DNA of 36,143 bases from Lentisphaerae bacterium GWF2_44_16 (GTDB lineage: Bacteria > Verrucomicrobiota > Lentisphaeria > Victivallales > GWF2-45-14). The stretch spans positions 1 through 36,143 of the forward strand of contig MHBF01000027.1 in the NCBI GenBank assembly GCA_001803225.1, read 5' to 3'. This document shows, piece after piece, positions 6,252-29,990 of this stretch. The position numbers and the translations under genes were made by a program. Numbering within the stretch: position 1 is the first letter of the stretch; each line of letters starts with the position of its first letter. Under the pieces are notes generated by a model, which worked only from the letters and a program-made list of their open reading frames with translations, did not search any database and was not told the origin of the DNA.

Positions 6252-6262
6252 CTTGAGGTATC

Positions 6263-6770: not shown

Positions 6771-6783
6771 TACATTGCAAAAT

Positions 6784-9896: not shown

Positions 9897-9905
9897 GAGA
9901 CTGGA

Positions 9906-10478: not shown

Positions 10479-11941
10479 ACTATTTTTCCAGTTTTCATTT
10501 CAACAACTACTCCGCCATGGAAAACTGCGAAATCTAATAATTCACGCATGAGGGTAATTCCTTTATTGGTTCTAAAAGCACCAGTCTCATCAAGTAACTG
10601 AGCATGCACCTGATGCGGGTAATACGCGACTTTCATCCTAGTATCGACACCACGGATATCCTTTCCAAAAATATTTGCAAACGCAGATAGTTGCCCGGTG
10701 AATGGATCCCCAAAAATTCTTCCGGGTTTTAGACTGTTAGAAATGTAAACTAAAGCAGGAATCGTTTTGTTGAGATCAAACTTTTCTAGTCTCGGAAACG
10801 CAGCCGCAAGAGCGCGCGACACGTTCATCGCCGAATCAGCAAGATATAGAACATTTTTAGCTGTCGTCAGATGCAGTAATCCGGTACGACTCCTTGGAAA
10901 ATCCTTTATTGTCATTTTGAACGGATATTTTCCACCAGTAGTTCGTTCTAGAATTCTTTTTTGTTCAGAAATCCATTGTTTTACATCAGCCACCGACTGT
11001 GGTTTGGATCCAGCATTAGACGACAGATTATAGGCCACCTTATTTTTCACCATTTTTTCCAACTCAGTAACAAATGGGTCTTTTTTCAAAAAACCGCCAG
11101 GATGCATCTCAGCAAGAATTTTCTTGGGAAGTTCGATTGTCTGTCCCCAATGGAACAAGTCCGGGAGTTCCGCATGCTTGTCAGATTCAGAAACAAATTT
11201 TGCAACCAAATCTGGAACACTGTCATCTGACAGGAGAACACTATCAGGGAGATAGTCCACGACATTTTTCCACTGGCTTTCGACGAAACCAATCATATGT
11301 CTATATTGGCTTTCCAATACTGGATACATGGCTTCTTTGGGCAAAATGCCTATATGGACCTTGATCATTGTGGCAACAGCTAAAAAGAGTGCTGCGAGAC
11401 CTTCACCGAATGCGTAATCTTCAGGATGGGCTGAGTCAGAGTAATGAAGTACGACGCAGGGGGCCTGGTAAGCGCAGCTGAGTTTTATTCCAAGAATTGT
11501 AGGCTAGATCGAATCTCTTCTCGTACCACCATCGACATGAGTTCCAAACTCTCCAAGCAAATACCAGAACGGAATTTGTTTCCTCAAACTGCCGTACATT
11601 CTCTCGCATCGCTGTAGAGCCTGATTTCCGGTTGGAACAGCCGCAGTTTCTTCTACTGCTAAAAGAATAGAATCTTTTTCTGGATCAAAAGTGATCAAAT
11701 CCGGTTTCCCCCAATCAATCAATTCGGCTATTTGCTTCGGTAACGGATCCCAATTTTTATAGGAGCCGAAAACTTTTACTTCTAGCTCCAGCTCGTCGTT
11801 GAGTTTGAATCTAAATACGGGGATAAATCCTTTCTCGTATGAGATACTCTCAATCAAAAAATGTTTCCCCAGTTCTTCACACGCCCAGAATCCTTCGTGG
11901 AAGCTATCCGCCCAAAATTCAAGTTTGGTCACTCTTGTCAT
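10475..11941 (-). pseudogene. Restriction endonuclease-like gene interrupted by an in-frame TAG
   Basis: The reading frame runs from the ATG at 11941 for 145 codons, meets TAG at 11504-11506, then stays open for 342 more codons in the same frame to 10475. The 45 codons just after the TAG read PTILGIKLSCAYQ... and fit smoothly onto the preceding RRDSI. One base change (TGG to TAG, a tryptophan) would explain the break. The first part contains GKPDLITF at 78-85 and LAVEETAAVPTGNQ starting at 94, resembling a PD-(D/E)XK restriction enzyme with Thr in place of the usual Lys. A separate start at 11368 could express the C-terminal 297 residues alone. The stop may be a real loss of function, a sequencing error or a readthrough site. 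Confidence 0.75.
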
Positions 11942-12079
11942 AGACAACTTTATGACGAAATTCTAGCGCAAAATTATGAGTTTAACAATGATATCGTATT
12001 ATGGCGCACTGGACGCCCCGCGGGGGTTGCGTCATTGATGTGTTGTATGAAAAACACACAAGGAGGCGTGGCGACCCAG

Positions 12080-13399
12080 ATGGGGCTGACACGCACAAAA
12101 CACGAACAGGAGAAGCCAGTGGCTCCTGAGGGTATCAAGTACTGTCTTTACGCTCGCAAGAGTAGTGAGTCGGCTGAGCGGCAAGTTCTTTCTATTGATT
12201 CGCAGGCGAAGGAAATGCTTCAGATCGCGGTGCGGGATGGGCTGAATGTGGTGGAGATCAAACGAGAAAGCCATTCAGCAAAATCTACAGGTCAACGACC
12301 AACCTTCAATGAACTACTGAACGATATCCGCGATAAAAAATTTAATGGGATTCTGACATGGGCGCCTGATCGCTTGAGTCGTAATGCAGGTGATCTTGGC
12401 GCGATCGTTGACTTGATCGATCAAGGATTGCTCGCGGAGATTCGCACGCACGGACAAACATTCGGAAACAATCCGAATGAGAAATACTTACTCATGATTC
12501 TTGGCTCAACAGCTAAGCTCGAAAACGATCACCGAGGTGAAAATGTAAAGCGTGGGCTTCGTACGCGAGTAGAAATGGGTCACTGGCCGGGTATGGCACC
12601 TATTGGGTATTCGGATCAAAAACGGATGGACAAAAAATGTCAGAAATTACGTGATCCTGTTCGCGCTCCTATCGTGAAACAGATGTTTGAAAAAGTGGCG
12701 TACGAAAAATTCAGCGGTCGCAAACTTTACAACTGGTTGAAACACGATCTGAACTTTAAGACGCGTGGCAATAAAACGTTGACACTAAGCGGTATCTACC
12801 GCATCTTCGATAATCCTTTCTACTACGGACGGTTCGAATTCCCACGCAACAGTGGTAACTGGTACGAGGGTAAGCATAAACCGATCATCACAAAGGAGTT
12901 ATTCGACCAAGCACACGTCCAACTAAAACGCGACCAAATTGTGCGGGAGAACAAAGAGTTCGCCTTCACTAAACTGTTTACGTGTGGACTGTGTGGATCA
13001 GGCGTGTCGGCGGAGGAGAAATACAAACAACGGAAGGATGGTGGTCACACACGATACGTCTACTACGGATGTACCAGGGCGCGAGATCGTGATTGCAAAA
13101 ATGTCTATATTCGAGAGGATGAGTTGATTGTGGAACTTCTGAAAATCATTGATCAGATCGACATCAATGAAATGGGATTGAAGGTGAAGCTTGAAGAAGA
13201 GATAAAACGATTTAGTCGGTTCGAGCGGTTGTTCCGAGGTGGAACGTCTGTACCTGAGGGAACGACTGAGGAGATGGATGTGCGTGCGTACATGAAGTAT
13301 CTTCTGCGGGAAGGGAGCATGTCGGAGAAACGGGAGTTACTTGGAAATTTGAGAAGTAAACTGATTTACGGAAATAAGAAGATATGGATGACAAGTTAA
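12080..13399 (+). CDS. Serine site-specific recombinase
   Basis: With the ATG at 12080 the protein has 439 residues. YARKSS at 24-29 contains the catalytic serine. APDRLSRN at 95-102 is the resolvase-family arginine motif, and a recombinase DNA-binding region follows. A CGLC ... C ... C zinc ribbon lies near residue 302, and the C-terminal end is charged. This is the layout of large serine integrases/transposases, although at 439 residues it is on the short side. An AGGAGG at 12061-12066 precedes this ATG by 13 nt; ATGs at 12038 and 12047 are alternatives. It sits between the R-M locus and phage genes and is the probable integration enzyme for one or both. Confidence 0.85.
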   Translation: MGLTRTKHEQEKPVAPEGIKYCLYARKSSESAERQVLSIDSQAKEMLQIAVRDGLNVVEIKRESHSAKSTGQRPTFNELLNDIRDKKFNGILTWAPDRLSRNAGDLGAIVDLIDQGLLAEIRTHGQTFGNNPNEKYLLMILGSTAKLENDHRGENVKRGLRTRVEMGHWPGMAPIGYSDQKRMDKKCQKLRDPVRAPIVKQMFEKVAYEKFSGRKLYNWLKHDLNFKTRGNKTLTLSGIYRIFDNPFYYGRFEFPRNSGNWYEGKHKPIITKELFDQAHVQLKRDQIVRENKEFAFTKLFTCGLCGSGVSAEEKYKQRKDGGHTRYVYYGCTRARDRDCKNVYIREDELIVELLKIIDQIDINEMGLKVKLEEEIKRFSRFERLFRGGTSVPEGTTEEMDVRAYMKYLLREGSMSEKRELLGNLRSKLIYGNKKIWMTS

Positions 13400-14610: not shown

Positions 14611-15222
14611 ATGAACAAGAAAGTTAAAAAACCAGAATTTCTCTTTCCATTCAAGAACAAAGAACACGAAGAAGAAAATAAGCATTATGTTGTTTCTAGA
14701 CTGAATACCATCTCTGATAGAAATTCAAAAATTGAACTAACCGAAACTGTTTTTAAAGGGGGATATCGAAAGCTTGAACTTAAAGAAACGATCTATTTTA
14801 AAAAAGGTGAAGATAAGAAACTAAGCGAGCGTCTCTATCTCAGGCCGTATGATCAAGTGCGACTCGAAAAATTTTTGGACTTTGTTCTTCATATACAAAA
14901 AGATGGCAACGCATTTCTTACGAGAAAAGATTCTTCAAAAGATCCCATTAAGTTTACTTCTAACCAACAAAAAATTATTAAACTATTTTACGAGCGTAAA
15001 GATGTTACTTTAAAAGACGCCATTGATATTCTTGGGACATATAAAACAACAGAATCATTAAGACAAACCATTCATAAAATGAATGGCAAGATCATTGGAA
15101 TGTTTAAACTCGCGAAAACAGATGAATTCATTAATGGCACGATCGACAAAAAGAGAAGTGGTTACTCCTTCAATCCAAATATCAGACTCGAATTCATCGA
15201 CGACAGAGTAATCAGTGATTAG
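14611..15222 (+). CDS. Hypothetical protein, possible helix-turn-helix
   Basis: The 203-residue lysine-rich protein is not recognised. The first 90 residues look like beta-rich charged sequence. Residues 115-165 (SNQQKIIKLFYERKDVTLKDAIDIL...) look like a winged-helix or HTH segment, so a regulator is possible. It is preceded by GGGGAAG about 10 nt before the ATG and followed by a terminator at 15242, so it is a single-gene unit. As the first gene of the phage-like block it could be an early regulator; this is inference. Confidence 0.6.
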   Translation: MNKKVKKPEFLFPFKNKEHEEENKHYVVSRLNTISDRNSKIELTETVFKGGYRKLELKETIYFKKGEDKKLSERLYLRPYDQVRLEKFLDFVLHIQKDGNAFLTRKDSSKDPIKFTSNQQKIIKLFYERKDVTLKDAIDILGTYKTTESLRQTIHKMNGKIIGMFKLAKTDEFINGTIDKKRSGYSFNPNIRLEFIDDRVISD

Positions 15223-15304: not shown

Positions 15305-16648
15305 ATGTGTTTTTCAACTAAACTGCTACCAGATATCAAGTATATCTCTTATTCATTAACGAAAATACGTATGGCAAAAAAGCTCATATGGCGCACGGAA
15401 CGACGAAAGGTAAAAGACCTGATCAGATACGAGAAAAATCCTCGTAAGCTATCAGATGTCCAACTTGAGGGATTAAAACGGAGCCTCAAAAAATTCAACG
15501 TCGCCGAGTTGCCTTGCATTAACACAGACGGAACTCTTGTCGCAGGAAATCAACGTGTGCTTGCACTCTCTCTTCTTGGGAGAGGAAATGAAGAAATCGA
15601 GGTACGTGTTCCAAATAGACCGCTCAGCGATGCGGAGTTTCGAGATTATCTTCTGACGTCAAATCGCAGTGGTGCAACTTGGGATTTTGAGAAACTCGCT
15701 GCGGATTTTGATTTGAGTGAACTCCTCAATGCAGGATTTGATTCATTAGACCTTGCCAATATCTTCGATAACAACCTGGAGATTGTTGATGATGCATTTG
15801 ACGAAGAAGATGAAATTGAGAAAGCGCAAGAGACCGATATTGCCCCTGGAGATTATTTCGCACTCGGTAGACACCGTCTGTTTTGCGGAGACGCAACAAA
15901 GCCGGAGAATGTACAACGACTCATGGATGGTGTGAAAGCCGACCTTGTAAACACTGATTTGCCGTTCAATATTGGTCTTTCCTATGACAAAGGCGTGGGC
16001 AATAAATGTGCCTATGGCGGCACTACAAACGACAGCAAGTCGGATGAAGATTACGAAACATTCGTCAAAACAGTCATGCAAAATAGCCTATCAGTCACAA
16101 AACCAGATGCGCATATCATGTTTTGGTGCGATGAGCGTTACGTCTGGTTGTTCCAAAAGGCTTATAGAGAACTCGGGATCGATTCCAAACGTTTATGTAT
16201 TTGGATAAAAAATAATCAATCCCCCACTCCAAACATTGCCTTCAATAAAGTAACAGAATTTTGCGTTTACGGAACGATAGGAAAACCGTGGCTCAATGAC
16301 AATATCACGAATCTAAACGAGATACAAAATAAGGAAGTCACGACGGGAAATCGACTCACAGAGGATATCCTCGATCTTCTCAATATCTGGCTAGTGAAGC
16401 GTCTGCCGGGATCCGAAAACGAACATCCGACGCAAAAAAATCCATCGCTCCACGAGAAAGCCTTACGACGTTGCACGCGCCCGGGCGATATCGTCCTTGA
16501 TTTAACCGCCGGGTCAGGAAGCATTCTTTCCGCATGCGAGCAGCTCAAGCGTACAGCCTATCTATGCGAGATGGAACCTGTATTTTGCCAGGTCATTATA
16601 AATCGTTTTAAAAAAATCTCCTATGAAAAAATCATCAAACTCAATTAA
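15305..16648 (+). CDS. ParB-like domain fused to a DNA methyltransferase
   Basis: The 447-residue product begins with a ParB/sulfiredoxin-like domain (DLIRYEKNPRKLS at 38-50; the GNQRVLA phosphate-binding box at 81-87). From about 180 it continues into a beta-class DNA methyltransferase. The catalytic motif reads DLPF at 218-221 where DPPY/F is expected, and the AdoMet loop is DLTAGSGS near 399-406. This fusion is common in phages and integrated elements, where it modifies the element's own DNA. AGAGGAAGG before 15305 supports that ATG; an ATG at 15371 (MAKKLIW) is an alternative. It overlaps the next methyltransferase by 26 nt. The Leu for Pro change may weaken catalysis. Confidence 0.85.
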   Translation: MCFSTKLLPDIKYISYSLTKIRMAKKLIWRTERRKVKDLIRYEKNPRKLSDVQLEGLKRSLKKFNVAELPCINTDGTLVAGNQRVLALSLLGRGNEEIEVRVPNRPLSDAEFRDYLLTSNRSGATWDFEKLAADFDLSELLNAGFDSLDLANIFDNNLEIVDDAFDEEDEIEKAQETDIAPGDYFALGRHRLFCGDATKPENVQRLMDGVKADLVNTDLPFNIGLSYDKGVGNKCAYGGTTNDSKSDEDYETFVKTVMQNSLSVTKPDAHIMFWCDERYVWLFQKAYRELGIDSKRLCIWIKNNQSPTPNIAFNKVTEFCVYGTIGKPWLNDNITNLNEIQNKEVTTGNRLTEDILDLLNIWLVKRLPGSENEHPTQKNPSLHEKALRRCTRPGDIVLDLTAGSGSILSACEQLKRTAYLCEMEPVFCQVIINRFKKISYEKIIKLN

Positions 16649-17381
16649 GCAGGGCGATGCGTTTACTCTCGGAAACCACCTATTGTTGTGTGAGGATTCC
16701 CGCAATAAAGAAATGGTCGCTGGGCTTATCGGAAAGCACAAAATCACAGCAGTGATCATTGACCCTCCTTACGGAGTAGCCGCGGCAGAAAGTAAAGAGG
16801 GGTTTCAGACGCTCGCAAAAAATAAAGCCATCATCAATGACCATCTTCAAACGGACAAGGAGTATCAACACTTTACTCTTGATTGGATTGAAGCGGTAAG
16901 GCCACATCTTAAACGAAAAAACAGCTTCTATATCTTCAACTCCGACAAAATGGTCTTTGCTCTGCGCGAAGGCATGATTGAGGCGGGTCTCAAATTTGGA
17001 CAACTCCTCATTTGGGTGAAAACGCACGCGGTGATCGGACGGATGGATTATGCGCCCCAGCACGAATTGATTGTGTACGGATGGTACGGAGTCCATGAAT
17101 TTCTCAAGCCAAAAGACAAGAGCGTTCTGGTGTGCCCTAAGCCGAATAAGAGCCCAATGCACCCATCTACCAAGCCACTTGATATTATCCGAAGACTTAT
17201 TTTAAACAGCACTCGTATTGGGGACGTTGTTTTTGACGGATTTCTCGGATCCGGAACAACTTTGCTTGCGTGCGAACAAACCAAACGGATCTGTATTGGC
17301 GTTGAACTGGATCCGGAATATTGCCAGACCATTATTGATCGGTTTGAAAAACTAACAGGCCTTGCAGCCGAAAAAATATGA
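16623..17381 (+). CDS. DNA methyltransferase, beta class
   Basis: The 252-residue protein has DPPYG at 47-51 (catalytic) and FLGSGTTLLACEQ near 207-219 (AdoMet binding). This is the beta-class order typical of N6-adenine or N4-cytosine methyltransferases. It lacks the ParB domain of its upstream neighbour but resembles that protein's C-terminal half, including the final CEQ ... RF region. The pair may have arisen by duplication, with this copy keeping the canonical active site. The start overlaps the preceding gene by 26 nt and the end overlaps the small terminase in an ATGA junction. Confidence 0.87.
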   Translation: MKKSSNSIKQGDAFTLGNHLLLCEDSRNKEMVAGLIGKHKITAVIIDPPYGVAAAESKEGFQTLAKNKAIINDHLQTDKEYQHFTLDWIEAVRPHLKRKNSFYIFNSDKMVFALREGMIEAGLKFGQLLIWVKTHAVIGRMDYAPQHELIVYGWYGVHEFLKPKDKSVLVCPKPNKSPMHPSTKPLDIIRRLILNSTRIGDVVFDGFLGSGTTLLACEQTKRICIGVELDPEYCQTIIDRFEKLTGLAAEKI

Positions 17382-17809
17382 GCAGGAAAGACACGATTAA
17401 AATTCGACAAAGCAAACTCAAGGAAGCGTTTCTTGGGCAACTCAAACGCACGCCAACGATTGAAACTTCGTGCCAAAAAGTCGGAATTTCCAGAGCGACG
17501 GTGTACCGATGGATCAAGGCAAGCAAGAAGTTTGAAAAAAAAGTTGATGAAGCACTTGAAGAAGGCAGAGCGTTCATGTCTGACATTGCCGAAACTCAGC
17601 TGTTCTCACTCATCGGCGACAAAGAAATTTCCGCCATTCGTTTGTATCTCTCAACGCACAATCCTCGCTACAGCAACAAACTTGAGCTTTCCGGTACAGT
17701 CACAACAAAAGATGAACCCTTAACCAAGGAACAGAAAAAATTGATACGAGAAGCGCTTAAACTTTCATCACTTCGCCATTATGGAAAAGAAAAAAACAAA
17801 GACAATTAA
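17378..17809 (+). CDS. terS: Phage terminase small subunit-like protein
   Basis: The 143-residue protein begins with a helix-turn-helix (TPTIETSCQKVGISRATVYRW at about 28-48) typical of small terminase subunits, which recognise the packaging site. The C-terminal half is helical and charged, as expected for oligomerisation and contact with the large subunit. It overlaps the preceding methyltransferase by 4 nt and the large terminase by 29 nt. Position directly before TerL is the strongest support. Confidence 0.75.
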   Translation: MSRKDTIKIRQSKLKEAFLGQLKRTPTIETSCQKVGISRATVYRWIKASKKFEKKVDEALEEGRAFMSDIAETQLFSLIGDKEISAIRLYLSTHNPRYSNKLELSGTVTTKDEPLTKEQKKLIREALKLSSLRHYGKEKNKDN

Positions 17810-19280
17810 GACGGGGAACTTATTCGAAAAAATTCTTTCCGATAAAGCTGTACGAAAAGGAGCTGTGTACAACAGATTGGAATTTTTCTTCCCGATTTAT
17901 TTTCATCGGTATATGGAATATGAGACAGCTCCATTTCATGAAGAAATTTTTCGTATCCTTGAGGACGAAACCATCAAACTCGCTGTCATTGTCGCTTTTC
18001 GAGGATCCGCAAAATCGACCATTATCACGACCGCCTATATCCTGTGGTCTATTCTTGGTGTGCAACAACGTAAGTTCATTGTGATCTGTGGTCAAACAGA
18101 ACAAAAATCACGACAATACTTGATGAACATAAAGAATGAACTATTGCACAATGATCTTTTGAAAAAAGATCTTGGACCCTTTACAGAAGAACGAAATAGT
18201 CTGGGTAATGCCACCGCGCTCATCATCAAAAAACTCAACGTAAAAATCATGATCAGTTCGGTTGAGCAGAGTATTCGTGGAATACGGCACGGTGAGTATC
18301 GTCCAGACCTTATTATTCTTGATGATATTGAAGATACGAATTCTGTGAAAACACGGGAAGGTCGTGAAAAGACATTTAACTGGCTCACAAGCGAGGTCGT
18401 GCCAGCAGGAAGCAAACGAACCAGAGTTATTGTTGTTGGCAATCTTCTGCATGAGGATTCGGTTCTCAAACGTCTGCAAAGGAAAATTGAGGATGGCGAG
18501 ATGAAAAAGATGAATGGTGTTTACCGCGAGTATCCCATTGTCGATGAAAAAAACAATCCATTGTGGCCTGGGAAGTATCCGACGCAAGAAAGCATTCAAG
18601 CAGAACAAGAGAGAACCATGAACGATATTGCGTGGTCTCGTGAATATTTGCTCAAGATCATTTCAACACTTGAGCAAGTCGTACATCCTGATTGGATACA
18701 GTTTTACCGCCAACCGCCTCAAGAAAATTTACGTAGTATTGCCATTGGTATCGACTTAGCAGTAAGTGAAAAAGAATCTGCTGACTGTACGGCCATGGTT
18801 GTTGGACATGTGTATGGACACGGCAAAAACATGAAAATCTATATCCAACCAAATCCAATCAATGAACGGATCACCTTCCCCGTACAAGTAGAGTACATAA
18901 AATTACTGGTGGTGGCGCAAAAACAAAAGCATTCGAGAGTAAAAATGTATATTGAGGAAGTAGGATACCAAAAAGTGATTGTCCAATTATTTGAAAGCTA
19001 TAAATATGACGTCGAAGGTGTATCTGTAGGAAGAAACGACAAAACCACTCGGTTGCGATTTACCACCTCTCTTTTAAAAGAGGGACGTATTTTGTTTCCA
19101 GAAAAAGGATGTGGAGAACTCATCGAACAGCTGATTGGTTTTGGCAAAGAAAAACACGATGATCTCGCAGATGCCTTTGCCATGCTTGTGTTAAAAGTCA
19201 TCGAGAACAATCCAAAAGGCGGTTCTGCAGGAACATTTAATGGACCACGATTTGATGCGATCAGAGGGAGACGAATGTAG
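17781..19280 (+). CDS. terL: Phage terminase large subunit
   Basis: The 499-residue protein has an ATPase domain with a variant Walker A FRGSAKST at 73-80 and Walker B LIILDD at 177-182. An RNase H-like nuclease domain follows, with Asp325 in IGIDLAVSE, an acidic pair near EEVGYQ (about 393) and HDDLADAFA at 459-467. These enzymes power DNA packaging into capsids and cut concatemers. Length and motif order are normal and the frame is intact. The usual next gene, portal, is absent: 18 nt after the stop a new promoter begins the DGR variable-protein unit. The gene is intact, but the structural module is missing from view. Confidence 0.88.
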   Translation: MEKKKTKTIKTGNLFEKILSDKAVRKGAVYNRLEFFFPIYFHRYMEYETAPFHEEIFRILEDETIKLAVIVAFRGSAKSTIITTAYILWSILGVQQRKFIVICGQTEQKSRQYLMNIKNELLHNDLLKKDLGPFTEERNSLGNATALIIKKLNVKIMISSVEQSIRGIRHGEYRPDLIILDDIEDTNSVKTREGREKTFNWLTSEVVPAGSKRTRVIVVGNLLHEDSVLKRLQRKIEDGEMKKMNGVYREYPIVDEKNNPLWPGKYPTQESIQAEQERTMNDIAWSREYLLKIISTLEQVVHPDWIQFYRQPPQENLRSIAIGIDLAVSEKESADCTAMVVGHVYGHGKNMKIYIQPNPINERITFPVQVEYIKLLVVAQKQKHSRVKMYIEEVGYQKVIVQLFESYKYDVEGVSVGRNDKTTRLRFTTSLLKEGRILFPEKGCGELIEQLIGFGKEKHDDLADAFAMLVLKVIENNPKGGSAGTFNGPRFDAIRGRRM

Positions 19281-19297: not shown

Positions 19298-19326
19298 TTG
19301 ACAAATAGCCTAATTTATGGTATATT
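19298..19326 (+). promoter_or_regulatory. Strong sigma70-type promoter of the variable-protein gene
   Basis: A perfect TTGACA (19298-19303), a 17-nt spacer and TATATT (19321-19326), close to consensus. The transcript would start near 19333 and carry a leader of about 140 nt. Confidence 0.8.
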
Positions 19327-19349
19327 TTCACCTTCCTTAAGCGAGTGAA

Positions 19350-19392
19350 GAATGGCGTTTTGAAGCTTGAATCAGGCTTTAGAACGCCATTC
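19350..19392 (+). promoter_or_regulatory. Hairpin in the variable-protein leader
   Basis: GAATGGCGTT (19350-19359) pairs perfectly with AACGCCATTC (19383-19392), with a small inner AAGC/GCTT stem. No T-run follows, so it is more likely an mRNA stabiliser or regulator than a terminator. Confidence 0.55.
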
Positions 19393-19470
19393 TCCACATA
19401 CAAAGGCAAGGTTCATGAGGTGCACGGTGCATTCTTGTGGGCTCGTCAGAGATGGCTGTGAGGTGTTCCG

Positions 19471-20271
19471 ATGAATCTCTATCTGAATCAGGCAGCCGAA
19501 CTGGTCGCTCGCTTCTTCCGCTTCGGGGGTTCGCTCCCGGCGGTTCTGAAGCTCCTCAGCGACGACGATCTGATGGCGTGGTGGGTCGAGTCGCTCAACG
19601 CGAAGCTCGACGCCAACCCGTTCGAGCAGACCGTGGAGGAGCAGATCGCTGCCCTCCGCGTTCAGAACGTCGCGGGCAACTGGGGCATCAGCGAGGACGT
19701 GTTCGAACGTCTCGCGCAGACCGCCCCCGCGTGGCCCAAGGGCAAGGATGCCTACCGCTCGCTCCGCATCCGCTTCGGCGAGGGAGATGACGGTGTGGCA
19801 CTCACCTTCGAGCGCCACGCGGCTGCCGTCAAGCGCGTCCACGCCAAGTTCTGGCGTTGGGATCTCCTGCTCTCCGCCAAGACCCCGTACAACGGAGAGG
19901 ATGTGGAGCGCCTGCGGCTCCTCAACGGCAACCAGAGCCACCACACGGTCGTCGAGTGGATCGTGATCGACGACCTCTCGGCCAACCGCAAGCGGACGGA
20001 CATCACGTTGGTGCGCGGCTCCAAGTCCCTCGCGGACGAAGGTCTCGTGCTGGGATGGCTGTTCCCCAAGCGTGTCGAGGCCATCGACTACGACAAGTGG
20101 TCGGCGTGGTACTGCGCCGGCTATGAGCTCAACGTCCCCGAGAACGACGAGGAGCCGTGGCAGCACGTGCCTTGCGTGTACCGCGACCTGCGCGATGGCG
20201 CCACGGACCTGGATGCCAACTGGCGGAGCAGCGACGACTCGGGCTATTCGGTGCCTCTCCTCAGGGAGTAG
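19471..20271 (+). CDS. DGR variable protein (target protein)
   Basis: The 266-residue GC-rich protein has a helical N-terminal part (1-70), an unrecognised middle, and a C-terminal domain whose last 45 residues are encoded by the variable repeat. The ending NWRSSDDSGYSVPLLRE resembles the C-type-lectin-fold ends of DGR targets, in which diversified residues lie on one exposed face. Relative to the template, ten codons changed: N232H, M236V, N237Y, N239D, N241R, T244A, N246D, N248D, N254S and N256D. GAGG lies 7 nt before the ATG. No signal peptide or membrane segment is seen, so how it reaches a ligand is unknown. The GC content contrasts sharply with the terminase gene 190 nt upstream. It has its own promoter and terminator. 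Confidence 0.85.
   Translation: MNLYLNQAAELVARFFRFGGSLPAVLKLLSDDDLMAWWVESLNAKLDANPFEQTVEEQIAALRVQNVAGNWGISEDVFERLAQTAPAWPKGKDAYRSLRIRFGEGDDGVALTFERHAAAVKRVHAKFWRWDLLLSAKTPYNGEDVERLRLLNGNQSHHTVVEWIVIDDLSANRKRTDITLVRGSKSLADEGLVLGWLFPKRVEAIDYDKWSAWYCAGYELNVPENDEEPWQHVPCVYRDLRDGATDLDANWRSSDDSGYSVPLLRE
20133..20269 (+). repeat. DGR variable repeat (VR)
   Basis: 137 bp aligned without gaps to the template repeat at 20688-20824. Mismatches at VR positions 20164, 20176, 20179, 20185, 20191, 20192, 20200, 20206, 20212, 20231 and 20236 all face an A in TR (8 A-to-G, 2 A-to-C, 1 A-to-T). The first 31 and last 33 bases are identical; the latter is the natural candidate for the initiation-of-mutagenic-homing sequence. 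Confidence 0.95.
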
Positions 20272-20276
20272 CACTC

Positions 20277-20396
20277 GGCACTTGAACGCTTGGCGCTCGG
20301 TGGGTCTTGGGACTTGTCCCTTGGCCCTCCGGCGCGAAGCGCCTCGCCGCATTCGGTTTTTCGACTCAACAAAGGGTCGTATCTCCGGGTGCGGCT
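20277..20396 (+). repeat. Dispersed trailer element, copy 2
   Basis: Carries the same two blocks as the element at 2630. Between them are two small hairpins: GGGAC/GTCCC (20309-20320) and GGCGC-GAA-GCGCC (20331-20343). The second, 62 nt past VR, could serve as the cruciform that promotes homing in some DGRs, but it is farther from VR than in the best-studied case. Confidence 0.65.
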
Positions 20397-20405
20397 CTTT
20401 TTTTC
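20346..20405 (+). terminator. Intrinsic terminator of the variable-protein gene
   Basis: GCCGCATTCGG (20346-20356) pairs with CCGGGTGCGGC (20385-20395, two G-U pairs) around an inner CGAC/GTCG stem, followed by a long T-run. Same architecture as 2714-2766. Confidence 0.75.
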
Positions 20406-20412
20406 TAAAATT

Positions 20413-20421
20413 TGCTATAAT
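20413..20421 (+). promoter_or_regulatory. Extended -10 promoter for the template-repeat RNA
   Basis: TG-C-TATAAT (20413-20421) lies directly after the terminator of the variable-protein gene, with no good -35. It would start an RNA near 20428 that reads through the template repeat. Confidence 0.55.
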
Positions 20422-20440
20422 CCATTTGGAAATTAGGCTC

Positions 20441-20542
20441 ATGAATCTGTATCTACGGATACCGGTCGCCGAAATCTCTTGCAATCCCGATATACCGTCA
20501 GAGTCCTGTTTTTTCAAAACAGGAGAGTACGGTGTGGATTGA
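20441..20542 (+). pseudogene. Possible remnant of a variable-protein 5' end
   Basis: A 33-codon frame starting MNLYL, with 14 of the first 15 bases matching the start of the variable-protein gene at 19471; beyond that similarity fades quickly. With TR downstream, it could mark a decayed duplicate of the target gene. The match is short and may be chance. Confidence 0.3.
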
Positions 20543-20687
20543 TAAGTACTCCGCATTTCATCTTGGAATCAGCCTTCGCATGGCTACGGCTGACAAGCCA
20601 ACCTGCAGAAGGATTGGGTTCCGCATAAAATTCAAAACATGGATGCGTCTGTGTTTGGTGACCTGGAAGGATGAGATGTAAATGAGG

Positions 20688-20824
20688 CGTCCCCGAGAAC
20701 GACGAGGAGCCGTGGCAGAACGTGCCTTGCATGAACCGCAACCTGAACGATGGCACCACGAACCTGAATGCCAACTGGCGGAGCAACGACAACTCGGGCT
20801 ATTCGGTGCCTCTCCTCAGGGAGT
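20688..20824 (+). repeat. DGR template repeat (TR)
   Basis: 137 bp, rich in AAC codons when read in the VR frame (NRNLNDGT, NLNANWRSNDNSG), the usual TR composition because AAC can mutate to many amino acids without becoming a stop. It contains about 34 adenines, 11 of which differ in VR; none of the roughly 103 other bases differs. It starts 418 bp after VR ends. Confidence 0.95.
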
Positions 20825-20837
20825 CCTTGTCAAAACA

Positions 20838-20862
20838 AAAGGAGCGTTTAAAGCGCTCCTTT
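20838..20862 (-). terminator. Terminator of the avd gene
   Basis: AAAGGAGCG (20838-20846) pairs with CGCTCCTTT (20854-20862). The avd stop codon (20848-20850) lies in the loop, and on the minus strand a TTTTGTTTT run follows. It lies only 13 nt from the end of TR and could also affect the template RNA. Confidence 0.7.
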
Positions 20863-21258
20863 ATGTTGTTCCAGATTTTTGATCCATCCCCCAAGCATTT
20901 TTCCCGCGTCGATCAGAAGGGATTCAAGTTTGAGATATTTTTCATTAGGTAAGCACTTGCTGTCTTTTGAAAGACGAATGAGAAGCTTAAGCAAATCGAT
21001 TTTCCCACTGACAGCAAAGAGTCGTGTCAATTTCTCTGCGTGATTTGACATGGAAGCCGCAGCAAGAAGCAGTTCCAGAGCCATAAGAAGATTTCGTGAG
21101 ATGGTTTCCCCGAGTGTGTAGCGTTGTACCTTTGGAAATTTCATGAGCATCTCACTCCACTGACAATAGGTATGATAGAGCGTATGCACGATCGGCAAAT
21201 CCCCAGGACCACCACCGAGCAGCTTTCCTTGTTCAATTTTGTTTTTGGTGTTGGTCAT
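20848..21258 (-). CDS. avd: Accessory variability determinant (Avd-like four-helix bundle)
   Basis: The 136-residue, almost entirely helical protein contains DLPIVHTLYHTY at about 20-31 and KFPKVQRYTLGETI at about 40-53, the recognisable pattern of bacterial Avd/four-helix-bundle proteins. Avd forms a positively charged pentamer that binds the reverse transcriptase and template RNA and is needed for mutagenic homing in studied DGRs. It is encoded on the strand opposite to TR and the reverse transcriptase, which is unusual. Its 5' end lies antisense to the region just before, or overlapping, the reverse transcriptase start. The ATG at 21258 has no clear Shine-Dalgarno. A terminator hairpin overlaps its stop codon. 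Confidence 0.82.
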   Translation of the reverse strand: MTNTKNKIEQGKLLGGGPGDLPIVHTLYHTYCQWSEMLMKFPKVQRYTLGETISRNLLMALELLLAAASMSNHAEKLTRLFAVSGKIDLLKLLIRLSKDSKCLPNEKYLKLESLLIDAGKMLGGWIKNLEQHKGAL

Positions 21259-22227
21259 ACGAAAATAAAAAGTGATTTATTTGAACAGATTGTTTCGATT
21301 GAAAATCTCTTTTTTGCCTGGGAGCGTTTTTGCAAGGGCAAAAGGAAAAGACAGGATGTGATGTTGTATGAGCGATATTTGGAAGATCATCTATTTTCTT
21401 TGCAGGAAGAACTTGTGTCCGGAACGTATGTTCACAGTCCATACGAACCATTCACAATTTACGACCCCAAACAAAGGTTGATTCATAAAGCCTGCGTAAA
21501 GGATCGAGTTGTTCATCAGGCAATTGTGAACATTATCGAACCTCTTTTTGAAAAACGGTTTATTCATGACAGTTATTCTTGTCGCGTCGGAAAAGGAACA
21601 CATGTGGCTGTTCGTCGTTTGCAGACATTTCTGAGGAGAGAAGGAAAAAATAACACAAAGACAGTTTACGCACTTAAATGCGATGTCAGAAAATTCTTTG
21701 CTTCCGTAAGTCACGAGGTTTTGTTGCATCAACTTTCCCAATCCATTGATTGCATAAAAACTATGGCTCTCATCAAAGGCATTATCCAAAGCTATTCGAC
21801 GTCGCACGGAACAGGAATCCCGCTTGGCAATCTCACAAGCCAGCTTTTTGCTAATGTGTATTTGCATGAGCTTGATTGGTACGTGAAACAGACACTTCGC
21901 ACCGCCCATTACCTTCGCTACTGCGATGATTTTGTTTTGTTGGTTCCTTCAATAGCCGAAGGCATGAGACTAGCAGATAATGTCGATCTCTTTTTACAAG
22001 AACGCTTGCGCATACAACTGCATCCGTACAAAGTCTGCGTTCGAACGGTAAAGCAGGGAGTCGATTTTCTCGGCTATCGCGTCTTGGAACACGCAGTGAT
22101 ATTACGAACAGGAACAAAGAAACGAGTCATAGAAAACATCAACGCAGAAAACGTGAGTTCCTATTTGGGTGTGTGCCAGCATGCAAACACCTACGATTTA
22201 CAGCGACAGCTAAAACATTTTGTCTAA
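21172..22227 (+). CDS. DGR reverse transcriptase
   Basis: Numbering from the ATG at 21172 (351 residues): catalytic Asp171 in ALKCDVRKFF, GIPLGNLTSQ at 215-224, the catalytic YCDD at 250-253 and GVDFLGYRV at 296-304. Compact length without maturase or other domains, and the GIPLGNLTSQLFANVYL signature, fit DGR-type and closely related group II-like enzymes. Recognisable similarity begins only at about 21274 (DLFEQIVSIENLF), so the true start is uncertain. Candidates are ATG 21172, ATG 21184 and TTG 21229, all antisense to avd. The stop codon overlaps that of the convergent nuclease gene. The enzyme would copy TR RNA with errors at adenines. Confidence 0.92.
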   Translation: MIERMHDRQIPRTTTEQLSLFNFVFGVGHTKIKSDLFEQIVSIENLFFAWERFCKGKRKRQDVMLYERYLEDHLFSLQEELVSGTYVHSPYEPFTIYDPKQRLIHKACVKDRVVHQAIVNIIEPLFEKRFIHDSYSCRVGKGTHVAVRRLQTFLRREGKNNTKTVYALKCDVRKFFASVSHEVLLHQLSQSIDCIKTMALIKGIIQSYSTSHGTGIPLGNLTSQLFANVYLHELDWYVKQTLRTAHYLRYCDDFVLLVPSIAEGMRLADNVDLFLQERLRIQLHPYKVCVRTVKQGVDFLGYRVLEHAVILRTGTKKRVIENINAENVSSYLGVCQHANTYDLQRQLKHFV

Positions 22228-23297
22228 TCCTTCTTTTGATCCAGCAACTGATCCAAGATATCCAGAATTTCTTTCGTACGCGGCAACCATTCCTCAGCCA
22301 TAACACTAGGTCGCAATTCTTTAAAATTTTCTGAAAATGAAAAGCCGATCGTTTCCAACTTTTCTTTGAACATCTGGGCAAGTTGTTCATTCACCTTCGC
22401 TGTCCATTCAAAATTGAATGAAAGCCGTTTATCTGTTGAAAGGGTGAACAACGACCGCTCGCAGATCGTTCCAAAAACAGGGCTGAACGATCCATACATG
22501 CCTGTTCCAAGACGAATTTCACTGGCGTGTTGTTTTGAAAAGGCATAGATCTGTTCAAACCCTTTGAATTCATCAGGAGAGAGTCTTTGTTTTGCATCCT
22601 GAAGCAGCAGTTCCTCCGTCCATTTTCTTCGGGTATCAGTTGATGAGGATACCGCAATATCCTTTTTTACTTCCGTACCAAATATTTTCGGAATAATGAT
22701 CTCATACGCATCATGTTTGTAGTATTCAAACTCAACCGCATAGACATCAAATTGGCTATTTTGATTCACGTACAAAATGAGATCCTTGAGCCTGTCGTCG
22801 AGCTTGTCCATAAGGACGACGAAATGAAAGACGCCGTTGTTGAGATTGTCACGAACTTTCTCGATGAGTGCGTCAACGTCTTCCGTTTCAAGTTCGAAAA
22901 ACTCACTAATCTTTTCCATTGTTCGGAGTTTGAACGCTTTCTGTGTGTGCTGATCTAAGATCTTCAGAAATTCATTGAAATCGTTCGAGTGTTTCCAGAG
23001 TGCCGCTCCGTAATCAAGTGATTGGGCAATGACCCTTCTCTTTTCTGTGTTTGTGTAGAGCTTCGTTTCAACAATATAGAGCTCCCCATACTTATCAATC
23101 CCAATAGCATCGATGGGACCACTGTTGGTAGGAAATTCACGTGCCAGAATGAGCAGACGGATGTCTTCCTTGATTTCATACAAAGGAATACTCTCTGGGT
23201 TTTCGTAGATGTATTGTTGCAGATAATCCTCTTTCTCAAAAGAAGATTTCTCGACTTTTACGGCTTTTCCGCCGTTGGATGAAATGATGATGGCCAT
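22224..23297 (-). CDS. PD-(D/E)XK nuclease-like protein
   Basis: With the ATG at 23297 the product has 357 residues. GPIDAIGIDKYGELYIVETKLY at about 60-81 carries the Asp ... Glu-x-Lys arrangement of PD-(D/E)XK nucleases, preceded by a YLQQYIYENPESIPLY helix as in many defence-associated nucleases. The second half is unrecognised. The frame is open back to 23354, but that segment covers a terminator hairpin and reads like leader sequence. The gene is convergent with the reverse transcriptase and transcribed alone. Its leader contains an intrinsic terminator 14 nt before the start codon, suggesting conditional expression. Confidence 0.7.
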   Translation of the reverse strand: MAIIISSNGGKAVKVEKSSFEKEDYLQQYIYENPESIPLYEIKEDIRLLILAREFPTNSGPIDAIGIDKYGELYIVETKLYTNTEKRRVIAQSLDYGAALWKHSNDFNEFLKILDQHTQKAFKLRTMEKISEFFELETEDVDALIEKVRDNLNNGVFHFVVLMDKLDDRLKDLILYVNQNSQFDVYAVEFEYYKHDAYEIIIPKIFGTEVKKDIAVSSSTDTRRKWTEELLLQDAKQRLSPDEFKGFEQIYAFSKQHASEIRLGTGMYGSFSPVFGTICERSLFTLSTDKRLSFNFEWTAKVNEQLAQMFKEKLETIGFSFSENFKELRPSVMAEEWLPRTKEILDILDQLLDQKKD

Positions 23298-23310
23298 AAC
23301 AATTTTGTGG

Positions 23311-23497
23311 TTAAAAACAAAAAGGACACCCCTGAGGTGTCTAGGCCCAAACAATAGACCCTAAGGTCGTACTGCTTGTTTTATCAGGAGTGCCCGTTAC
23401 GACGCACTACGACCTGATAGCCAAAAAATGGCTGAATTGGGATCTTTTGTTTGAACCTAGACGTTGAGAGTATAGCTTAGGATGCCCTTAAAGTGAA
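23311..23497 (-). promoter_or_regulatory. Structured leader with promoter and possible attenuator
   Basis: Reading the minus strand: TTCACT (23497-23492), a 17-nt spacer and TATACT (23474-23469) form a promoter. A 12-bp hairpin with a 4-nt bulge follows (arms 23419-23404 and 23393-23382), then a terminator stem GACACC/GGTGTC (23341-23325) with a T-run ending at 23311. AGGTCGTA (23415-23408), inside the first hairpin, can instead pair with TACGACCT (23371-23364), so two structures compete. The start codon is at 23297. The remaining intergenic stretch up to 23617 shows no gene. Confidence 0.45.
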
Positions 23498-27336: not shown

Positions 27337-29988
27337 CTATAATAAGTCTGCGAATGTTTTATCAAATGTTACGTCAGTATGTGCAATAAGAACGTACGCC
27401 CATTTCTTTCCGCGATTCTCTGCATTGAATTTCGAAGCCGTGGCACAAAACTTTTGACCAGCTTCCGCCTTCTCTTGTACGTCGATGCTTTCAACCTGAT
27501 TTTCAGCTTTAACCTCCACCACATAAATGGAATCCCCAGTTTCTACAACAAAGTCCGGAATGTATCGCTGTGAGTTGTGGTTCCAATAGATTGAGAATTG
27601 AGATTGTGCAGGACGCAGCCACCGCAAGACTTCTTTGTCCCTATCGATAATCGTTGCAAAATCTTTTTCTGCTTTCGAATCAAACTTATAAAGTGCATGG
27701 CAAGCCTTCGTAAATCCACCAAAAACCTTCGACGGAATTGATTGCGTCGGGGTAATGGTTTCGGTGTGGTGGTAGATCTTATCCTGAAGATACATTGAGA
27801 AGTTATGCGGTTCAATTTTTGAGAATGGGAATACCTTCGTCACCTCAAAGCCTGCTGTTTTGAGATAAAAATGTTGTCGAAGCTGAGCTTGAATGTAGTG
27901 TGCAATATCTGACTTATGATAGATGACGATATTCCTCAAGTCGTCCGTGGTTTTATCCATCCCTAACGCAGAAATAACCTGCATTGCGAGTTTGTGCAAT
28001 AAGTCAGCGTCGCGATCATAATCAATCTCTGGGAAATTGATGAGTTCGTTGATGATGATATTCTCAGGTGTATCTCGCAAGATGCCACCTTCGTTGGCTT
28101 GATGGATGCTTTCGCTTTCGTTTGTCCGCAATGTACGACGAACAATCTCTTCAGAAACAGGTTGGTAATTCAGGGTTTGAACATCGAGGTTAAAATCATG
28201 GAATCCGGCTTCAACAGGTGTGCCTTGTTGGATATGAATGCGCGGGATCGGGATGATTTTTTCAATCACATCATCAGCAACTTTTTCATAACTCTGCTTT
28301 GCCGCGGCAATAATTTGTTCCTTGAAAATATTTTGTTGTGGAGCCTCTTCAAGATGCGCGACAAGACGTTCAATAACGAGAGTTTGGATGGTTTCATTTT
28401 TGATGTCGCCAATATTTTTTACCGCATCGCCCATGGACTCCATGATCCCTGTTAAAGCCATCTTTGCCTCAAGCTCAAAACCAGCGGCTACTTTTTGTGG
28501 TGATTCTGTCATCGCGTCTACAGTCTTTTTCTCATTATCAAAATTTACTTCCATCAAAGATTTTGAAGAAATGACCGTTTGATCCGGTGGCAAAGCTAAT
28601 GGATCTATCTCGATGATATTTTCGAGGCGAATAATTGAATTGGGGTCATTTGCCGCATCGATGATTGCCTGGAAACGATCGTGAGCGATGATCGTTAACG
28701 TATCGATTTTCTTGACTCCCGTGCGTTTCCCGTATGGAAGACGAAGACCGCGACCGATGGTTTGCTCGGTAAGAATGAGTGAGTTGGAAGCTCGTAACGG
28801 AACGATAGTGTAGAGGTTCGTTACGTCCCAACCTTCCTTGAGCATGTTTACGTGGATGACGATTTCGATTTTATTATCAGGACTCTCAAGATCAAGGAGA
28901 CGTTGGATATTTTCTTCTTTTTCACTACCGCGTTGATTCGAGTGGATCTCCATGACCTTGCCAAGGTAACGACCAGCAAAAAAACAGTCAGACTCAATCA
29001 TGGAGTGGATCTCTTGAGCGTGATCTGTATCTTTTGCTACAACCAAAATAAAGGGTTTTACTTTTCGCTGTCCGGTATCTCGGGAATAGATATCCAGCGC
29101 AACCTTCGTATCTTCATGGATTCTAACCGCATCCTCAAGTTTGATGAGATCAAGTTCGTTTGGATTATTTCTATATTGATCTGGATCAAACTTTTTACGA
29201 GTTGCAACTGCGGGATCCTTAAGAAAACCGTCGCGGAGTCCGTGTGCGAGAGAATACTCATAAACAACGTTTTTAAACTTGTTGCCCCGCGTATCGATTG
29301 GGGTAGCGGTCAGTTCCAAACCAAGAACTGGCTTTAACTCGTTGATCGCCTTAAGTCCTGCATCCGCTCGATAGTGGTGGGATTCGTCCATCAGCAATAC
29401 GAGATCAGGAAGTTCCGAAAGATAGGTGAAATATGATTCACCGAGATATTCCGAAAGACGTTTGATCTTTGCTTCGTGCCCTCCACGAACTTCCGAATTG
29501 ATTTGTTGAATATTAAATACATTGATCTTGATGGATTCACCAAACAGAGAACTCATCCGTGCCTCGGTGTAGTTATCGCTCGTAATAATCTTTGGGGGAG
29601 TTTGTACGAACTCAGCAATTCCACGAAAAACATATTTCGGGCTTCGTAAGTTCGAAAAATCATCAACGAGTTTGTTATAAATCGTTGTACCTGGAGCCAA
29701 CACAAAAAAGTTCTTTATGCCTTTGACCAAGTAAAGATAGGTAACGAACGCGCCCATGAGCCGCGTTTTTCCAACACCAGTCGCAAGAGAAAATGTCACA
29801 GACGGAAAGTCGCGCTCAAAGTTACTGCACGTTGGATACTTTTCTTGAATAGCCTTCAGTCCAGCTACAATGTCCTCATCTTTTTTCAGTTCTAAAATAT
29901 CAGCAATCTCGGATAAGATAGCAAGGCTGTCGGCTTGCGGTTGGCGCAACGAAAGACGGTTCTTTATTGTTTGAGCAACGTGATTCAT
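27337..29988 (-). CDS. res: Type III restriction endonuclease-like Res subunit
   Basis: The 883-residue protein has helicase motifs ATGVGKT at 69-75, DESHHYR at 201-207, LTATPID at 226-232, and EQTIGRGLRLPYG in the second RecA domain. A C-terminal nuclease has PDFVV at 811-815 and EVK at 825-827. This is the standard layout of type III Res, which translocates on DNA and cuts after meeting an unmodified site in head-to-head orientation. The upstream Mod gene ends 2 nt before its ATG, so the two are one transcription unit. The frame is intact. Confidence 0.9.
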   Translation of the reverse strand: MNHVAQTIKNRLSLRQPQADSLAILSEIADILELKKDEDIVAGLKAIQEKYPTCSNFERDFPSVTFSLATGVGKTRLMGAFVTYLYLVKGIKNFFVLAPGTTIYNKLVDDFSNLRSPKYVFRGIAEFVQTPPKIITSDNYTEARMSSLFGESIKINVFNIQQINSEVRGGHEAKIKRLSEYLGESYFTYLSELPDLVLLMDESHHYRADAGLKAINELKPVLGLELTATPIDTRGNKFKNVVYEYSLAHGLRDGFLKDPAVATRKKFDPDQYRNNPNELDLIKLEDAVRIHEDTKVALDIYSRDTGQRKVKPFILVVAKDTDHAQEIHSMIESDCFFAGRYLGKVMEIHSNQRGSEKEENIQRLLDLESPDNKIEIVIHVNMLKEGWDVTNLYTIVPLRASNSLILTEQTIGRGLRLPYGKRTGVKKIDTLTIIAHDRFQAIIDAANDPNSIIRLENIIEIDPLALPPDQTVISSKSLMEVNFDNEKKTVDAMTESPQKVAAGFELEAKMALTGIMESMGDAVKNIGDIKNETIQTLVIERLVAHLEEAPQQNIFKEQIIAAAKQSYEKVADDVIEKIIPIPRIHIQQGTPVEAGFHDFNLDVQTLNYQPVSEEIVRRTLRTNESESIHQANEGGILRDTPENIIINELINFPEIDYDRDADLLHKLAMQVISALGMDKTTDDLRNIVIYHKSDIAHYIQAQLRQHFYLKTAGFEVTKVFPFSKIEPHNFSMYLQDKIYHHTETITPTQSIPSKVFGGFTKACHALYKFDSKAEKDFATIIDRDKEVLRWLRPAQSQFSIYWNHNSQRYIPDFVVETGDSIYVVEVKAENQVESIDVQEKAEAGQKFCATASKFNAENRGKKWAYVLIAHTDVTFDKTFADLL

Positions 29989-29990
29989 AT

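Follow-up and report, generated by a model that had tools for sequence, protein, structure and literature searches.

A complete diversity-generating retroelement next to terminase genes, probably cargo of a satellite-like integrative element in a Patescibacterium

Main finding

The window analysed here (the whole stretch of 36,143 nucleotides) contains a structurally complete diversity-generating retroelement (DGR) of a Patescibacteria-type clade, with adenine-specific differences between template repeat (TR) and variable repeat (VR). From gene content and homology, we judge it somewhat more probable than an even chance (about 0.57) that this DGR is carried as cargo by a satellite-like, capsid-less, terminase-bearing integrative element in a Patescibacterium, probably an Uhrbacteria-like one. 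The first-pass annotation had asked whether the DGR belonged to a phage, as in BPP-1, or to the host; the adjacency to a phage terminase stood, and neither option was retained as the best reading, because this family of the terminase large subunit (TerL) is found in integrative elements that have no recognisable head genes and whose various cargoes include DGRs.

Structure of the DGR cassette

The following features were assigned in the cassette (loci and contigs compared are given by their handles):

19298..19326, + strand: promoter of the variable-protein gene, TTGACA-17 nt-TATATT (read from the sequence)
19350..19392, + strand: 5' leader hairpin (GAATGGCGTT...AACGCCATTC), an inverted repeat, aligned in contig C116
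19471..20271, + strand: variable protein (DGR target), 266 aa
20133..20269, + strand: VR, ending at the target stop codon; 3' end identical to TR (IMH-like)
20286..20343, + strand: post-VR hairpin element with CTTG-motif array
20302-20327, + strand: core of the post-VR hairpin, with tandem UU/UU internal loop
20346..20405, + strand: terminator-like hairpin and T run after the target gene (as read)
20413..20421, + strand: extended -10 (TGCTATAAT), where the TR RNA presumably starts (as read; conserved in L076)
20424..20687, + strand: presumed leader of the TR RNA, with strong conservation in L076 over much of its length
20688..20824, + strand: TR
20837..20862, unstranded: inverted repeat where the TR RNA and Avd converge, probably a terminator in both directions, conserved in L076 (as read)
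20848..21258, - strand: Avd (bAvd family; Pfam bAvd, E 3.4e-14, above the cut-off)
21124..22227, + strand: frame of the DGR reverse transcriptase (RT), domain from about 21256

The earlier assignment of a complete DGR to 19298-22227 was borne out, coordinates included: target, VR, TR, Avd and RT were all present, and the YCDD of the RT was intact, as was LGNLTSQ. The motif xGxxxSQ is a hallmark of DGR RTs. The 18-nt gap from the TerL stop codon to the start of the cassette was also confirmed, 19298 being the first base of the promoter -35.

TR and VR are ungapped 137-nt copies with 126 identities. Each of the 11 mismatches falls on an adenine of the TR (8 A to G, 2 A to C, 1 A to T), and together they alter 10 amino acids; since the TR has 34 A in 137 nt, the chance of 11/11 at A is 0.248^11 (about 2e-7). 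This pair was detected without a filter on A mismatches. In L076, a near relative (RT 89%), the VR differs from its own TR only at A (9/32). The clade scan detected a TR/VR pair in 74/83 loci, and then in 26/30 further loci; note that both scans kept a pair only if three or more mismatches fell at TR A and outnumbered those elsewhere threefold, so that the A-bias of the clade pairs is partly built in.

The RT matched RVT_1 (E 1.4e-19) and phrog_1423 (E 2.6e-106). The in-frame start nearest to its domain is TTG 21229, the other candidates being TTG 21124, ATG 21172 and ATG 21184, all of which fall within Avd read antisense. The RT phylogeny proposed earlier as a check was run (40 rows) and placed the RT among viral DGR RTs, in a cluster with 12 other viral RTs (TR/VR detected for 8 of these) and one RT of a relative of the bin, apart from the group II-like RTs (support for the split, 97/98; some branches are long). 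Avd, which also matched phrog_3206 'Avd protein of DGR' (E 2.6e-16), is on the minus strand, divergent from the RT and convergent with the TR, an orientation absent from the first-pass annotation. Avd was opposite in strand to the RT in 84/84 loci of the Patescibacteria-type clade where Avd was detected, and no statement of such an inverted Avd was met in the part of the DGR literature searched.

The target gene has a GC content of 65%, versus 40-44% for TerL, RT and Avd. The variable protein had no match in Pfam or PHROG and no evident export signal. Its AlphaFold2 model had a mean pLDDT of 71, falling under 50 within the VR region (residues 223-250); a C-type lectin fold was not confirmed, with no PDB match at E 0.001 and the VR region poorly modelled.

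Promoters, hairpins and a putative post-VR signal

The TTGACA of the target promoter was also aligned ahead of the homologous target on C116. A CTTG-motif array 3' of the VR, folding into hairpins with tandem U-U loops, was found clade-wide; the motif was defined on 74 loci and the element was confirmed on a separate set of 21 held-out loci (independent test), versus an average of 0.9 CTTG motifs after the VR in 10 control DGRs of other viral contigs. The hairpin was present in one of seven orphan targets (L172) and absent in five, the remaining one (L166) running off the locus; thus, some target paralogs lack it. Covariation among six near relatives was modest (22 pairs, 4 changed on both sides, term -0.61), so that the case for the hairpin leans on the clade motif array and the held-out loci. 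No match was obtained in Rfam, and the exact 30-base pattern of the 3' UTR was absent from the viral contigs searched.

In the mechanism that we propose, a promoter of its own at about 20413-20421 would drive the TR RNA, which would end at the hairpin common to Avd. RT and Avd would make from it a cDNA with errors where the TR has adenines, and this cDNA would take the place of the VR at the target gene's 3' end, with the hairpin 3' of the VR acting as a putative target-site signal like the BPP-1 hairpin/cruciform.

Origin of the contig

Placement of the window in the main genome of its bin was rejected on composition and gene matches. The tetranucleotide correlation of its contig (C27) with C116 was 0.93, as against 0.70-0.83 for nine further contigs of the bin, and matches to the target family and the 3' UTR within the bin were confined to C27 and C116. 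The RecQ of C116 was 56-64% identical to that of five of the seven Patescibacteria genomes (one full-length match at 56%; four over the N-terminal ~400 residues at 58-64%), the other two giving no match and 26%, respectively, versus 46% or less for five genomes related to the bin; in G048, the bin of L076, RecQ was found in pieces at 49 and 59%. The contig is probably mis-binned and would come from a tiny, Uhrbacteria-like groundwater bacterium.

Terminase-bearing element family

The genes around the cassette were assigned as follows:

11861..13399, + strand: large serine recombinase
14611..15222, + strand: uncharacterised protein adjoining MT1 (65%, common to element L213)
15305..16648, + strand: ParB-like/DNA methyltransferase (MT1)
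16623..17381, + strand: N6/N4 DNA methyltransferase (MT2)
17378..17809, + strand: terminase small subunit (TerS)
17781..19280, + strand: TerL (phrog_38, E 1.1e-74)
22224..23354, - strand: uncharacterised protein, PADLOC candidate PDC-S11-like, 68% identical in element L022
24106..25917, - strand: OLD/GajA-like ATPase-TOPRIM nuclease (cargo)
27337..31583, - strand: type III restriction (Res) and modification (Mod) genes (cargo)
32221..35166, - strand: SNF2 helicase (cargo)

The motor and nuclease residues of TerL are conserved, and the scanned proteins of the window included none recognisable as portal, capsid or tail (the ORFs at 182, 9906, 11504, 31580 and 35290 lay outside the scan). The 3' end of the recombinase gene faces the DGR element, and the gene may thus close a preceding tandem element; the recombinase at 11861 may belong to this neighbour, with that of the DGR element itself lying outside the window. 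The element probably extends on its right side past position 36143.

TerL genes of this family were found in 37/379 genomes of the phylum (at E 1e-30), in a recurrent block of ParB-methyltransferase (MTase), an optional second MTase, TerS, TerL and serine recombinase. Among 78 mapped TerL loci, 57 had the serine recombinase, 10 had a portal gene and none had both; the portal and head genes of the related phage group (phrog_2662 and phrog_10) were found in 0/57 recombinase-bearing loci, with a portal HMM that is blind to unrelated portals, having given none in L021 and L024, where PHROGs gave portal-like matches. The PHROG test of 128 unlabelled proteins from 24 loci gave one tail-protein match (phrog_7043) among the 25 of 108 families displayed. 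The recombinase was the next ORF of at least 80 aa after 19/86 TerL genes, which leaves no space for head genes between those two. TerL is under purifying selection: dN/dS was 0.072, 0.013, 0.021, 0.137 and 0.049 in the five of nine close pairs whose dS could be measured (rough values, with dS of 0.9-2.5), and pN/pS was 0.11-0.22 in the remaining four.

By homology, an integrase and a packaging function are present in these elements and structural genes were not recognised, as in satellites, the assignment of the recombinase in the window being uncertain; capsid and portal genes of their own beside the terminases, as in capsid-forming PICIs, were not found. Such an element would be mobilised by site-specific recombination and depend on a helper phage for capsids, into which its own terminase would pack the DNA; the host would be repaid by the cargo (restriction systems, OLD-like nucleases, DGRs). 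The cargo observed included restriction-modification genes, OLD-like nucleases and, more than once, DGRs. For 8/57 recombinase genes (7 loci), a tRNA gene lay no more than 600 nt from the 3' end, with about 1 expected from density, and at the seven loci no att repeat of at least 12 nt was found except a tRNA-internal repeat in L323. No element contig was proved circular (in L256 the prefix match was poor, at 58%), and neither a helper phage nor excision, an att site or packaged DNA was observed for the element. In a bolder form of the satellite reading, the DGR-varied protein would be a variable adaptor or sensor for helper phages.

The MTase-MTase-TerS-TerL block might alternatively be a restriction-like defence module in a mobile defence island, in which the terminase ATPase-nuclease would cut foreign DNA and the ParB-MTase and MTase would protect self. 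MTases alongside TerL in 54/57 loci, restriction genes around it in 23/57, the purifying selection on TerL and the tandem TerL genes at six loci would all fit such a module. However, TerS, which is expected for packaging, is kept in 52/57 loci, and LexA/CI-like (8/57) and ImmA-like (2/57) genes occur as in temperate elements; we regard this alternative as unlikely. Very improbable, in our estimate, is a remnant prophage, whose integrase, MTases and terminase were left after loss of head and tail and whose DGR would formerly have diversified a tail protein: TerS and TerL both belong to true phage families, TerL relatives precede portal genes in phage contigs, and L021 and L024, which are phage contigs, also have DGRs of this clade, but the portal-less block has a conserved order in 57 loci, TerL dN/dS is 0.01-0.14 where measurable, and a target lacking Pfam and PHROG matches also argues against it.

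Link between the DGR and the element

An RT of the clade was within 20 kb of 4/37 TerL genes in the genomes searched for both (0.79 expected, P about 0.009). This unselected recount, with an enrichment of about 5-fold, replaced a first count (3/20 genome windows, about 15-fold), which was dropped because its windows had been chosen after the RT list was seen. These numbers, and L095, where a DGR target also directly follows TerL, speak against an ordinary chromosomal Patescibacteria DGR having landed by chance beside an unrelated mobile element. That view, which we hold to be rather doubtful, has in its favour that TerL of this family was present in only 8 of the 83 clade loci and absent from 75, within the sequence examined (up to 10 kb on each side, often less; more in the window itself), and that L076, the nearest relative, has another downstream neighbour. 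The DGR clade is thus not dependent on the element.

Implications

Extending the satellite reading, there may be widespread Patescibacteria satellites with their own TerS and TerL, one or two MTases, exchangeable cargo and no head genes, which would use helper capsids; we propose this tentatively, at rather less than an even chance. If true, hypermutation would be traded between cells as satellite cargo, the terminase element being a concrete vehicle for DGR transfer in Patescibacteria. The data point to a satellite-like strategy with a complete terminase and head genes that are not recognisable, a strategy not met in the part of the literature that our survey covered. The clade-wide post-VR hairpin and inverted Avd render target recognition in this DGR clade testable.

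Comparison with known systems

PICIs rely on the terminase of the helper, in some cases with a TerS or an adaptor of their own, whereas cf-PICIs encode the two terminase subunits as well as capsid and portal (PMC10690885). The window element would resemble both in its integrase, few or no structural genes and helper dependence, whereas it has both terminase subunits and no recognisable head genes. It is comparable with PLE of Vibrio cholerae in two features, the large serine recombinase and an anti-phage role (PMC6002521). A Saccharibacteria phage described as complete with no identifiable capsid protein (PMC6509639) is similar, by description only, in being Patescibacteria-associated with a terminase and no capsid identified; thus, capsids in the group can go unrecognised.

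As in the BPP-1 DGR (Mtd/Avd/Brt), the window has a target with a 3' VR, a TR, Avd, an RT, A-specific substitutions and a hairpin after the VR. The BPP-1 hairpin, just 3' of the VR, has an 8-bp stem and a 4-nt loop (Guo 2011, PMC3240598); the post-VR hairpin of the window, perhaps its counterpart by analogy, is longer, with tandem U-U loops and a CTTG array. Also unlike BPP-1, the target matches no family and no phage structural genes were recognised nearby. Avd in the window differs from that of BPP-1 in being opposite in strand to the RT.

Roux et al. (2021) reported Patescibacteria as enriched in DGRs, and a Patescibacteria/CPR clade 2 with targets lacking recognisable transmembrane or other domains (PMC8144416). 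The DGR of the window shares with clade 2 the host group and a target in which no such domain is recognisable; it would be placed in clade 2 on the basis of its host, and its clade extends beyond that description to phage contigs and terminase-bearing elements.

Anatomy of the DGR

The window carries a diversity-generating retroelement (DGR) whose anatomy and adenine specificity are plain, and its coordinates and parts in the first-pass annotation were correct on re-examination. At the stated start, 19298, lies the -35 box of a promoter with 17-nt spacing, and the stop of the large-terminase gene (TerL) lies 18 nt before it. The assignment of a DGR-type reverse transcriptase (RT) with an intact YCDD also stood: the protein, which has LGNLTSQ as well, matched RVT_1 and phrog_1423, and in the tree it fell with the RTs of other viral DGRs, in one group with 18 RTs of its type (99/97; some branches are long). 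The Avd-like gene, likewise borne out, matched bAvd (above the Pfam cut-off) and phrog_3206 and lies on the minus strand. The other features are as follows.

19471-20271, target open reading frame (ORF)
20133-20269, variable repeat (VR), 137-nt match with the TR
20286-20343, hairpin after the VR, with a U-U loop in 20302-20327
20688-20824, template repeat (TR), 137-nt match with the VR
20837-20862, inverted repeat on which the TR RNA and Avd converge

The TR and VR differed at 11 of 137 nt, all 11 at TR adenines (chance about 2e-7, with 34 A among 137 bases), and 10 residues were changed between the two readings. The best PDB sequence match of the RT was 8ub7 ("Reverse transcriptase"; E 6e-50; next match, 5e-23). 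We infer that the DGR retrohomes. The TR RNA and Avd are convergent, and Avd and the RT are divergent. Note that the in-frame RT starts before the RT domain (ATG, GTG or TTG), namely TTG 21124, ATG 21172, ATG 21184 and TTG 21229 (the closest to the domain), all fall within the antisense of Avd; thus the two may form a head-to-head overlap (21124-21258).

Relatives and Avd orientation

At E 1e-30, RTs of the window type were found in 89 out of 286 Patescibacteria genomes. A TR/VR pair was present in 74 of 83 relative loci, with 0-3 mismatches off TR adenines. A further 30 loci from genomes of the phylum, 25 of them new, gave pairs in 26, where 449 mismatches fell on A and 10 on other bases. Both scans accepted only pairs with three or more mismatches at A, outnumbering the others 3:1, and the A-bias is therefore partly built in.

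Of 116 loci, 85 have Avd on the strand opposite to the RT and 24 have it on the RT strand; in the other 7 no Avd was found. The same-strand cases all come from one set of viral contigs (L025-L053). Among 86 loci, some of them near copies (the window, L020-L024 and L076-L155), an Avd was found in 84 and was opposite in every one; the two remaining loci begin less than 80 nt from the RT. Additional viral contigs split likewise: Avd was opposite in L346-L351 and L422, and shared the RT strand in L352-L360, L362 and L384, of which the RTs are more distant (38-43%). Thus, the inverted Avd marks the DGR clade of the window.

Element after the VR

CTTG-type motifs in the 80 nt after the VR averaged 3.32 (74 loci; 7 with none) vs 0.48 at random positions and 0.99 in a dinucleotide-Markov control, and at least five were present in 19/74 flanks vs 0/2960 random positions. 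RNA folding of 73 flanks gave tandem U-U internal loops at 25 loci, 26 in all, vs 9.0 ± 2.7 (maximum 15; 100 shuffles) after shuffling of the non-motif letters. The mean z of the folding energy was -3.5, to which terminators contributed part. In 21 held-out loci, the motif mean was 3.33 vs 0.54, at least three motifs were present in 15/21 vs 2.0% of random positions, and 12 U-U loops were found vs 3.25 ± 1.8 (maximum 10). Ten DGRs from other viral contigs had 0.9 motifs on average. Guo et al. 2011 (PMC3240598) showed that BPP-1 requires a hairpin/cruciform directly after the VR, and found similar structures to be common; we therefore take the element to be a clade-specific form of this kind of signal, which may act as DNA or as RNA.

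Target genes

The target protein matched no Pfam or PHROG family, no signal peptide was evident by eye, and confidence in the structure model was too low in the VR for fold assignment. Besides the DGR-linked target and its TR, extra paralogs were found in 4 of 8 genomes searched. In the same assembly, window ORF 1797-2630 and a target on contig C116 retain the 3' region with the VR changed. The former, probably a retired DGR target, is GC-rich, shares the structured 3' UTR of the DGR target and ends in VVREFHWR (targets end in VPxLRE). The C116 gene (L009 180-1028), which we think is also retired, encodes a second target with 51% identity across residues 42-265. It shares the leader and 3' UTR, but its VR has diverged from the TR, outside adenines too.

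A sequence from the viral collection (L028 1-2797) has a 125-nt terminal direct repeat inside the RT. Closed into a circle (2672 bp), it would hold little more than the RT, an ORF resembling a target, a TR-like frame and an inverted Avd; it is a DGR minicircle, a tandem duplication or an artefact of assembly. No second small circle turned up when its RT was used as a query.

Host

The whole bin is 5.16 Mb. In tetranucleotide composition the window contig resembled C116 (r 0.93) more closely than nine other contigs (0.70-0.83), and RecQ of C116 is consistent with a Patescibacteria host. Among the best 80 of 430 RT loci in the genome collection, titles gave 61 Patescibacteria, 17 only "bacterium", 1 Planctomycetota (L111) and 1 Ignavibacteriae (L076); the last, a 3.9-kb contig, held the nearest RT (89%), followed by Parcubacteria, Uhrbacteria and Patescibacteria. 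We read the bins of the window and of L076 as both contaminated. L076 (JACQVI010000137.1), a DGR contig of an Ignavibacteriae bin, is of Patescibacteria by RT and target, and it was probably mis-binned in the public genome.

Terminase block and carrier

With tblastn, the TerL, TerS, methyltransferase (MTase) and recombinase of the window were found near the RT in several relatives. Viral contigs were scanned for TerL (the best 80 of 378 were used), as were the phylum's genomes, of which 37 of 379 were positive and 20 stretches were taken. Together with earlier loci this gave 78 mapped TerL loci, in which MTase, (MTase), TerS, TerL and serine recombinase recur in this order. The recombinase was present in 57/78 loci (MTase in 54 and TerS in 52 of these; restriction genes of labelled kinds in 23), and it was the next ORF after 19 of 86 TerL genes. 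A portal cluster (phrog_2662) was present in 10/78, five of them with a head protein (phrog_10). Recombinase and portal never occurred together (0/78; Fisher 2.8e-7, the loci not being independent). Neither was present in 11 loci, of which six end less than 1 kb from TerL; one of the eleven, L256, is continued by L422, which has recombinase, RT and Avd.

Tandem TerL pairs were seen inside the element block of L219, L220, L222, L228, L250 and L325. L113 and L351 show the same succession of MTases, DGR and serine recombinase with no TerL match; in L113, unmatched ORFs of 124 and 501 aa occupy the TerS and TerL places. On the left of the window (3031-11368) lies a second defence-rich block with Fic, PrimPol-helicase, two type II MTases and a nicking-endonuclease-like protein.

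RTs of the window type were present in 13 of the 57 recombinase loci, 8 of which (including the window) were not chosen by TerL. Viral loci picked by TerL alone had an RT in L225, L231, L239 (33% identical only; a putative DGR RT) and the contig of L256 (via L422). Among the RT matches listed for genomes searched for both genes, an RT lay no more than 20 kb from 4 of 37 TerL genes (G278, G072, G315, G301); the expected number, uncorrected for contig ends, was 0.79 (P about 0.009). The clade occurs in chromosomes, in terminase-bearing elements and also in phages, because phage-type genes are present in L024 (terminase phrog_2, weak portal match), L021 (head-tail adaptor, weak portal match) and L079 (phage-type exonuclease, ribonucleotide reductase).

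Since the portal HMM misses unrelated portals (L021, L024), a broader PHROG scan was performed on 128 unlabelled proteins encoded no more than 7 kb from TerL at 24 loci. The 25 families shown of 108 matched included no head or packaging family and one tail-protein match (single hit, phrog_7043), and a set of 30 proteins, in part the same as the 128, gave no structural family. A head family matched by single proteins is possible among the other families, as are capsids too divergent for recognition. The motor and nuclease residues of TerL, G75, S76, K78, S79, T80, D181, D182, D325, D460 and D461, were invariant in seven sequences. The dN/dS of 0.013-0.137, in the 5 of 9 pairs where dS was measurable, argues against decay of this TerL class. 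The clade features, the recurrence of the terminase block and the selection on it are established.

Of 57 recombinase genes, 8 (at 7 loci) have a tRNA near by, and L241 and L330 cease to be homologous near the recombinase 3' end; both observations suggest insertion at this end. The window recombinase (11861-13399) is directed into the DGR element; thus it may close a preceding element, and, judging from L095, L213 and L231, the DGR element's own recombinase would lie beyond the contig end. We infer that the element is mobile, uses a helper and is packaged. The window DGR is a further member of a known DGR type, and its carrier, with a terminase and without recognisable head genes, looks like a new variant of satellites.
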